Assembly: GCA_003021905.1 (NCBI GenBank)
Contig: PXPI01000099.1
Location: 1 to 64,000, forward strand
Length of the DNA: 64,000 nucleotides
Direction: 5' to 3'
Source: Cyanobacteria bacterium SW_9_44_58
GTDB taxonomy: Bacteria; Cyanobacteriota; Cyanobacteriia; Cyanobacteriales; Rubidibacteraceae
Part shown: in pieces, positions 13,987 to 15,669 of the stretch
Position numbering within the stretch: the first letter of the stretch is position 1
Layout of the letters: the number at the start of each line of letters is the position of its first letter
The notes under the pieces: model-generated
Databases searched by the model: none
Told to the model about the DNA's origin: nothing
The model's input: the letters and a program-made list of their open reading frames with translations, nothing else
Program-made: the position numbers and the translations under genes

Positions 13987-14012
13987 CACCTTTTTGATTG
14001 ACACTCCCCTAC

Positions 14013-15225
14013 CTAAAGGCGAGGGGATTCTTCATTCAACGACGTGACTTGCTCAGACAGGACTTGTCCTACCTGAGTAGTGATCTCATCTCCTGAAGCG
14101 TTTTCAGGGTCTAGCCCTGCCGTTCCCACGTGCCCCGTGGTACGAAGTCCTTCTCTCAGAATGTTGATGGCTGCGTTATGATCACGGTCTAAGATAGTTT
14201 CACAAGCACAAGCATGAGTTCTCGTGGACAGTGCTTTTTTAACAATTCGTCCACAATTAGAGCATTCTTCGCTCGTATATTGAGGCGGTACGGCTACTGT
14301 TGCTTTACCAAACTTATAGGCAAAGTATTCCAACCATATTCGGAATTGATACCAACCTACATCTGAGATTGATTTAGCAAGATTATGATTTTTCACTAAG
14401 TTTTTGACCTGTAAGTCTTCATAGGCGATGAAGTCGTTAGACAACACAACGCAACGCGCTATTCTCTTAGCGTGTTGCGTTGTGTTGTCTACTTATTCTC
14501 AGGTGTTTCTTAGCTAATCGTTGTCTTGCTTTCTTGCGATTAGATGAGCCTTTTTGTTTGCGAGATAGACGGCGATGGCTCCGTTTTAATTCCTCTTCTC
14601 CTTGACGGAAAAAACGAGGATTCGGTTCTTTATGTCCGTTACTATCAGTATAGAAATCAGTTAAGCCAACATCTAAACCAATAATTTGCTTGGTTGGCTC
14701 TACTTTTTCAGAGGCATCAACATTAATGCAAAACTGACAATAGTAGCCGTCAGCACGTCTAACCAAGCGAACCCGTTTGATTTGGTCTGGGGAATAAAAG
14801 TAGATATCTCGACTACCAATTAACTTAACTCTCCCAATATGGTTTTTATCGGTGAAAGTAATATGTTTTTTGGTATTAGGATCAAGTTTCCACCCCGTTA
14901 CCTTGTATTCAACGGAGCGATTATTCTTTTGAAACTGAGGATATCCTTTCTTCCCTTTAATTCCCGCTTTACAATTCTGATAAAAGCGATGAATAGCAGA
15001 CCAAGCACGTTCGGAGGAAGCTTGTCTTGCTTGCGCGTTGAGTTTTTTGGCAAAGCCAAACTCATCCCCTAACTGCTTACACAGTTTACTCAAGTCGTAC
15101 TTGTTTACGCCTTGATGATCCATCCAATAACGAACGCATTTATTCCGCACAAACTGAACAGTACGAATTGCTTCATCAATGGCAGAGTATTGAGTTTTAC
15201 TTGCTTTAACCTTATATATACTCAA
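14013..15225 (-). pseudogene. tnpB: RNA-guided endonuclease TnpB-family transposase, frameshifted (two ORFs 14467..15225 and 14013..14447)
   Basis: AIDEAIRTVQFVRNKCVRYWMD...GLDVGLTDFY (RuvC-I), SNDFIAYEDLQVKNLVKNH (RuvC-II), CSNCG...DRDHNAAINILREG (Zn finger/RuvC-III). The span of 1213 nt is 3n+1, consistent with a single +1 frameshift. Confidence 0.9.
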
Positions 15226-15247
15226 TTACAATATATACTCAATTACA
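15214..15247. repeat. perfect tandem duplication of 17 bp (atatatactcaattaca x2)
   Basis: 15214..15230 and 15231..15247 are identical and span the tnpB 5' end. Confidence 0.85.
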
Positions 15248-15423
15248 AACATACGCTACCTTATTGGCATAGCTTGATTATAACACAAAAGTTTGTTCGT
15301 TGTCGGGCTATTGAAGCCCTTAACTCATCCTCACCTCCGCTCCGGGCCTTATATCTTCTTCCTGAAGGAGAGAGGCGCGTGCGGCGACTTTCGGTAAGGT
15401 ATTAATTTTTCTAATTCATCTGT

Positions 15424-15520
15424 TGACACTCCCCTTCCTAGAAGAAAGGGGATTCTTGGTTCTGCGACGTGACTTGCTCAGACTGGACTTGTCCAACCTG
15501 AGTAGCGGTCTCGTCTTGGC
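15424..15520 (-). mobile_element. solo IS200/IS605 right-end remnant (3' tnpB/omegaRNA-like sequence)
   Basis: about 90 bp closely similar to 13998..14090 (tgacactccccttcct...ggggattcttgg..cgacgtgacttgctcaga.tggacttgtccaacctgagtag); no tnpB upstream. Confidence 0.8.
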
Positions 15521-15669
15521 ACAAGGCATAATTTTGTGCGAAATGGTTTCCAGTTCCTATAATGGAAGTAAATCCCAAAAAAAATATCAAGTTTAAAATC
15601 GGTAACGGAACGTGTTGATTGTGTTGAAAAAACACTTAAGTTACTAAAACTGCTATTAAGGAAATTACC

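Follow-up and report, generated by a model that had tools for sequence, protein, structure and literature searches.

A probable template-switch scar in a cyanobacterial tnpB gene and a candidate structured RNA within its reading frame

In the 64,000-nt stretch of Cyanobacteria bacterium SW_9_44_58 analysed here (the window; positions 1 to 64,000 of contig PXPI01000099.1), a tnpB gene of an IS605/IS1341-type insertion sequence (IS) on the minus strand is split in two, from 15225 to 14467 and from 14447 to 14013, and a near-perfect palindrome lies at the break. This palindrome is very probably the fossil of a quasi-palindrome template-switch mutation in a decaying, lineage-specific element, and its seed stem would be the P3 helix of a conserved RNA domain within tnpB.

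The upstream arm of the palindrome is templated by the downstream arm

The two arms, 14439-14460 and 14469-14490 on the plus strand, are complementary at 21 of 22 positions and enclose an 8-nt loop (ATTCTCTT, 14461-14468, plus strand), exactly as the original prediction had read them from the letters. The repeat can be extended to 24 nt at 96% (14438-14461 with 14468-14491). It far outranks every other inverted repeat with arms of at least 16 nt in the window, the seven others listed being 73-88% complementary. The sole mismatch between the arms sets 14456 opposite 14473. The prediction had further held that the coding-upstream (right) arm is 22 nt long instead of about 21, and that the whole tnpB span is 3n+1. 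The arm indeed has 22 nt, against 21 in every relative, and the distance from start to stop is 3n+1 whether counted from TTG at 15225 (1213 nt) or from ATG at 15252 (1240 nt).

The site was aligned with its closest tnpB copy, as the original prediction had proposed, and the changes were found clustered in one arm and templated throughout by the other. The nearest copy, C15, resides in the same genome and is ~90-91% identical over 170-190 nt; loci from Halothece metagenome-assembled genomes are also among the closest relatives. On the coding strand C15 reads AGTAGGCAACGTAGTG-AACACGCC-AAGAGACT-GGCGCGTTGCGTTGTGTTGTCT and the window reads AGTAGACAACACAACGCAACACGCT-AAGAGAAT-AGCGCGTTGCGTTGTGTTGTCT. 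Within 17 nt the upstream arm departs from C15 by five substitutions and one inserted base, and at all six it has taken the base complementary to the downstream arm. The downstream (left) arm, the source of the copied sequence, is that of C15 (AGACAACACAACGCAACGCGCC) except for its first base in the coding direction, a C to T change at 14460, the innermost base of the arm. The source arm is native in both C15 and genome G001. The arms of C15 already match at 15 of 22 positions once the gap is placed, so that an imperfect inverted repeat predates the event. These comparisons show that the change was directional and templated.

The derived state is confined to the window copy. The inserted base is absent from the 30-odd aligned relatives and from 179 other copies, and none of these 179 copies carries the palindrome, which the original prediction had expected to be missing from related intact genes. 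When the match between the arms was scored with a gap penalty, the window copy reached 21 and the other 179 at most 14.

We weighed four other origins for the scar. Independent point mutations and a one-base insertion could have chanced on a palindrome, given that all five substitutions are transitions and that a pseudogene is free to drift. However, the changes mended the gap and five of the six mismatches of the ancestral arms and left all 15 matching positions intact, and the 64 nt preceding the altered tract are identical to C15. Moreover, random placement of an equal number of changes, with a transition bias, gave a score of 21 in only 2 of 3 million simulated trials (~1e-6). We therefore regard chance as very unlikely. 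An assembly or amplification artefact in the form of a fold-back chimera might be suspected in a draft of 136 contigs, but such chimeras join long inverted copies, whereas here a 12-nt tract changed with a net gain of one base and normal tnpB sequence continues on both flanks; this origin is just as improbable as chance.

A tnpB copy that already bore the derived arm might have donated it by gene conversion or recombination, as the genome contains 33 matches to the TnpB domain and its copies appear mosaic (identity to C15 is 90% locally and 77% overall). The derived arm in the upstream position, however, occurs nowhere else in the same genome or in 293 genomes of the order, even with up to two mismatches allowed; the other sequence matches to it in the 293 genomes are native downstream arms. 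This absence makes conversion highly improbable, and it also disfavours insertion of a repeat element. A small palindromic repeat, resembling a miniature inverted-repeat transposable element, is what a perfect-looking palindrome in a cyanobacterial genome would first suggest. Yet homologous sequence was replaced with a net change of +1 base, target-site duplications are absent, and the genome contains no further copies. We rejected this candidate on the net single base and the single genomic copy, and consider it barely conceivable.

Some observations weigh against a template switch as the whole account. A C to T change in the inner stem, at the third position of an Ala codon, with the opposite G to A, is not needed by the switch, and neither is one change in the loop. 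Furthermore, the exact parent copy is missing: C15 agrees with the window copy at 90% of positions locally but at just 77% overall, and the ancestral arm was deduced from many copies. The changes at the innermost pair and in the loop may be separate substitutions; the innermost T-A state is common among relatives.

Likely route of the switch

The copied tract would occupy 14477-14488 on the plus strand (GCGTTGTGTTGT), where it replaced the ancestral 11-nt CACTACGTTGC and gave rise to the +1 frameshift. It was placed by aligning C15 and more than 30 relatives, and we infer its exact ends (a CTA microhomology marks the far end). The retained mismatch, T at 14473 opposite G14456 (plus strand), corresponds to ancestral His/Arg codon positions and sits inside the pre-existing 8-nt stem; the copied tract must therefore start beyond it. 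The original prediction had proposed that one arm was copied onto the other, making the palindrome and the frameshift in a single event. The templated changes in one arm support this mechanism. Two refinements apply to it: only 14477-14488 appears to have been copied, and the seed was apparently a conserved RNA-encoding hairpin.

In the proposed sequence of events, the pre-event arms would have been held together by the 8-nt inner stem (AACACGCC/GGCGCGTT), which would have existed because it is helix P3 of the conserved RNA domain in the tnpB frame. The nascent strand would change template at this inner stem, copy ~12 nt of the opposite arm, and then return. This exchange of 11 nt for 12 would at once create the near-perfect repeat and shift the reading frame. 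An intramolecular route is the likeliest: the nascent plus strand would fold onto its own left arm, prime from a stem with 7 of its 8 pairs formed and one G.T wobble, and return at the shared CTA. Alternatively, the nascent minus strand could switch onto the other parental strand, entering at a 3-nt CTA/TAG microhomology and leaving in the stem. Judging from the anatomy of the scar, the fold-back of the nascent plus strand looks the easier of the two, although the minus strand may have been the one that switched.

Scars of template switching are already known, and the one in the window is unusually clean. Quasipalindrome template switches have been described in T4 rIIB, yeast CYC1, and reporters based on Escherichia coli thyA and lacZ (PMC7202029). 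As in those cases, an imperfect inverted repeat was perfected in one event, with the other arm templating both substitutions and a frameshift. Unlike them, the present scar arose naturally in a pseudogene of a transposon and was reconstructed by comparing many sister copies, and its seed stem would be an RNA structure under selection. Saccharomyces cerevisiae coding genes (PMC8604942) and RNA hairpins (PMC8794818) are further reported sites of template switching. Here too, homogenisation of the arms is seen against relatives, and RNA hairpins and template switching appear to interact; the difference is that a bacterial mobile element was hit and that a conserved RNA helix was extended, damaging the protein frame and the fold.

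A putative RNA domain inside the tnpB reading frame

In a codon alignment of 179 tnpB copies, each less than 95% identical, all 78,112 pairings between third codon positions were examined for an excess of complementarity over chance (background standard deviation 1.07, 99.9% quantile 4.2). The highest z values were obtained for codon pairs 252-259 (15.2), 364-368 (14.5), 365-367 (13.5), 254-257 (13.3), and 253-258 (10.9); next came 263-266 (8.6) and 244-273 (7.9). Pairs 364-368 and 365-367 fall in the 3' region of the reRNA (omega RNA), while codons 252, 253, and 254 with 259, 258, and 257 form the stem beneath the window palindrome. In this stem, Glu/Asp codons (GAN) face Arg (xGN) at 252-259 (A-T 99, C-G 51, T-A 13, G-C 10), His (CAY) faces Ala (GCR) at 253-258, and Ala (GCN) faces Val/Leu (xTN) at 254-257. 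Synonymous constraint peaks in two stretches only, codons 242-274 and codons 361-404, the latter being the position of the known reRNA; over most of the gene the choice among synonymous codons is free (~0.2 bits).

RNAalifold applied to codons 238-280 of the 179 sequences predicted a single consensus fold of -50.8 kcal/mol. It consists of a closing stem, P1 (CCUCAAA/UUUGAGG), an internal loop, P2 (GUAGGC/GCCUAU), and a three-way junction with hairpins P3, which is the window hairpin, and P4 (CCAAUC-UAAC-GAUUUGG). In the window the domain lies at 14400-14511 on the minus strand (model match 83.0 bits), with P3 altered by the switch. Across 99 sequences, 91.1% of cells are paired, versus 30-39% after sliding by 1-3 columns. 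Two-sided changes are present in 21 of the 31 pairs, and the values of five measures were reached by none of 500 shuffles. When the changes were mapped onto a tree of the remaining gene sequence, 225 double changes from one Watson-Crick pair to another were counted, at most 40 per pair, compared with a control mean of 3.2 and a maximum of 14. Distant copies folded singly are predicted to adopt the same shape. Among 20 held-out loci, 18 scored ~15-32 bits higher with the structure model than with sequence alone and the two most divergent gained nothing; the two models are weighted differently, and this gain is supporting evidence only. The alignment thus shows a conserved, covarying domain of ~95 nt, predicted to fold as RNA, that cyanobacterial tnpB encodes in frame where the RuvC-II region lies.

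Counting against this fold, P1 is its weakest helix, with 81.7% of cells paired and frequent A.C mismatches at both ends, and in the genus of the window it pairs in a shifted register. The window segment itself is predicted to form a 23-bp hairpin (z = -9.7) in place of the fold of its relatives. A different main stem for P3, GCAACG/CGTTGC, was considered and dropped, as the third position of its Gln codon does not covary with its partner.

The wobble pairs suggest on which strand selection would act. At the three key P3 pairs, wobbles of the sense type (G.T) number 33 versus 7 of the antisense type (A.C). Over all 31 pairs, 535 sense wobbles were found of 748 expected, and 178 antisense-type wobbles of 414 expected. 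This bias favours selection on the sense RNA, or on single-stranded DNA of the top strand. A large multicopy family such as tnpB lends itself to asking what maintains RNA hairpins, selection or template switching. Recurrent switching at the DNA level could in principle account for the covariation of the stem: it can generate compensatory pairs, as proposed for stems of ribosomal RNA (PMC8794818), and the window copy is a well-supported switch at this very stem. The strand asymmetry of the wobble intermediates, however, is predicted by selection on sense RNA and not by a DNA-level process, and template switching alone is therefore unlikely to keep the arms alike; the asymmetry argues for selection keeping the hairpins. 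The sequences of P1, P2, and the junction are likewise conserved. We consider recurrent switching an unlikely source of the covariation. Both processes can be compatible, with selection keeping the RNA stem and the same stem, as DNA, seeding the switch that ruined the window copy.

The known reRNA of ISDra2 comprises ~150 nt from the 3' end of tnpB plus the right end (RE) of the element (PMC8612924). The candidate domain resembles it in being a structured sense-strand RNA that overlaps tnpB, and the constraint peak at codons 361-404 fits the reRNA. Unlike the reRNA, the domain lies wholly inside the reading frame and ends ~390 nt before the stop codon; at codons 243-274 of ~404, it is set apart from the 3' peak and does not have the position of a reRNA. 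The scar would thus point to a folded RNA hidden in the gene of an RNA-guided nuclease, for which the literature we found describes only the 3' reRNA; no description of a structured RNA within the tnpB reading frame was found in the literature searched, in which subscription journals were incompletely covered.

On this evidence, cyanobacterial tnpB genes and their cyanophage relatives probably carry an undescribed cis-acting structured RNA at RuvC-II that is distinct from the reRNA and preserved by constrained synonymous codons. A deeply diverged second TnpB subfamily shows a hairpin of its own at the corresponding place, and internal RNA is thus possibly a general, so far unrecognised component of TnpB elements. 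The selected stems would be hotspots of template switching at the DNA level. Judging from its conservation, the fold would have a function, and our best guess is a cis-acting element of the tnpB mRNA, separate from the 3' reRNA, that acts in processing, stability, or the binding of TnpB or a host factor. If the domain processes or regulates the tnpB mRNA, it would be a missing part in the biology of the ancestors of Cas12. It would also explain the strong synonymous constraint, which codon-optimised TnpB constructs would erase.

Distribution of the domain and state of the IS element

Of 146 genomes sampled across the phylum, 43 contained matches to the domain model, and the genome of the window had them at seven places. 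The full-length matches listed span 111 nt without gaps, as expected for coding sequence. None of the listed matches was shown to be a free-standing copy outside tnpB, although the frame was not checked for every match. By blastn, domain-like DNA was found only in cyanobacterial plasmids and cyanophages. The phage loci H74-H86 (Nodularia, Anabaena/Nostoc, and Microcystis phages) hold tnpB genes with sequence resembling the internal domain. No match was obtained in TnpB loci of Deinococcus, Staphylococcus, Streptomyces, or a haloarchaeon, and viral contigs, scanned with a TnpB from Staphylococcus as the outside control, yielded nothing. Rfam searches of the window and ten loci of the family gave no family at the gathering threshold, only weak unrelated matches and a group II intron beside one tnpB copy; the domain is thus like Rfam families in its support by covariation and unlike them in matching none.

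Loci L003-L006 and L277-L366 represent a sister cyanobacterial TnpB subfamily with ~33% identity. It shows a peak of synonymous constraint at the homologous place, codons 246-265, and a conserved hairpin, CTATC-nCGCnn-GATAG, that is swapped for CTAAG...CTTAG through a switch of Ser codon from TCN to AGT. The evidence for this internal hairpin is weaker than that for the main domain. A group II intron domain was matched at L059:1409-1486 (RF00029, 55.4 bits), immediately 5' of a tnpB in Arthrospira sp. PCC 9108. Another tnpB, L228 (G112:C220:20050-21801), contains at codons 8-25 a 25-nt inverted repeat with 2 mismatches and a loop of 16, in which TCAGGGACAAAACGAGCAGTACGAA pairs with TTCGTACTGCTCGTTTTGTCCGTAA. 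Its downstream arm looks native and its upstream arm derived, and the repeat may be the product of an in-frame template switch in an intact tnpB.

The window tnpB does not have an intact reading frame, as it contains a nonsense codon near its start in addition to the +1 frameshift. Its 5' fragment (14467-15225, minus strand) encodes 252 aa from TTG and ends in a TAA that arises in the shifted frame; the 3' fragment (14013-14447, minus strand) encodes 144 aa. The Pfam domains OrfB_IS605 and Cas12f1-like TNB were detected on these two fragments, respectively, and on an intact relative, which also matched NF040570. The second lesion, overlooked by the original prediction, shows that the frameshift is not the sole damage to the gene. 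It is a 21-nt in-frame insertion at 15214-15234 on the minus strand, containing a 17-bp tandem duplication (TTGTAATTGAGTATATA), and it introduces the TAA at 15226-15228. The duplication is accompanied by a TATA expansion at the start of tnpB (15214-15250). The frameshift may have struck a gene that already carried this upstream lesion, or the lesion may have come later; the gene was or became a pseudogene twice over.

The right end of the element, with a hairpin (CCCCTCGCCTTTAGGTAGGGG) and GTGTCAA, lies at 13998-14029 on the minus strand. In genomes G002, G003, and G005 the neighbouring genes are present without the IS element, and the element is thus lineage-specific. The genome of the window is a draft of 2.94 Mb in which several of the 33 TnpB-domain matches are in truncated frames, and the C15 copy is itself broken upstream. 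What is left of the right end of another IS element, belonging to the same family and oriented alike, directly adjoins the broken tnpB element (15423-15532).
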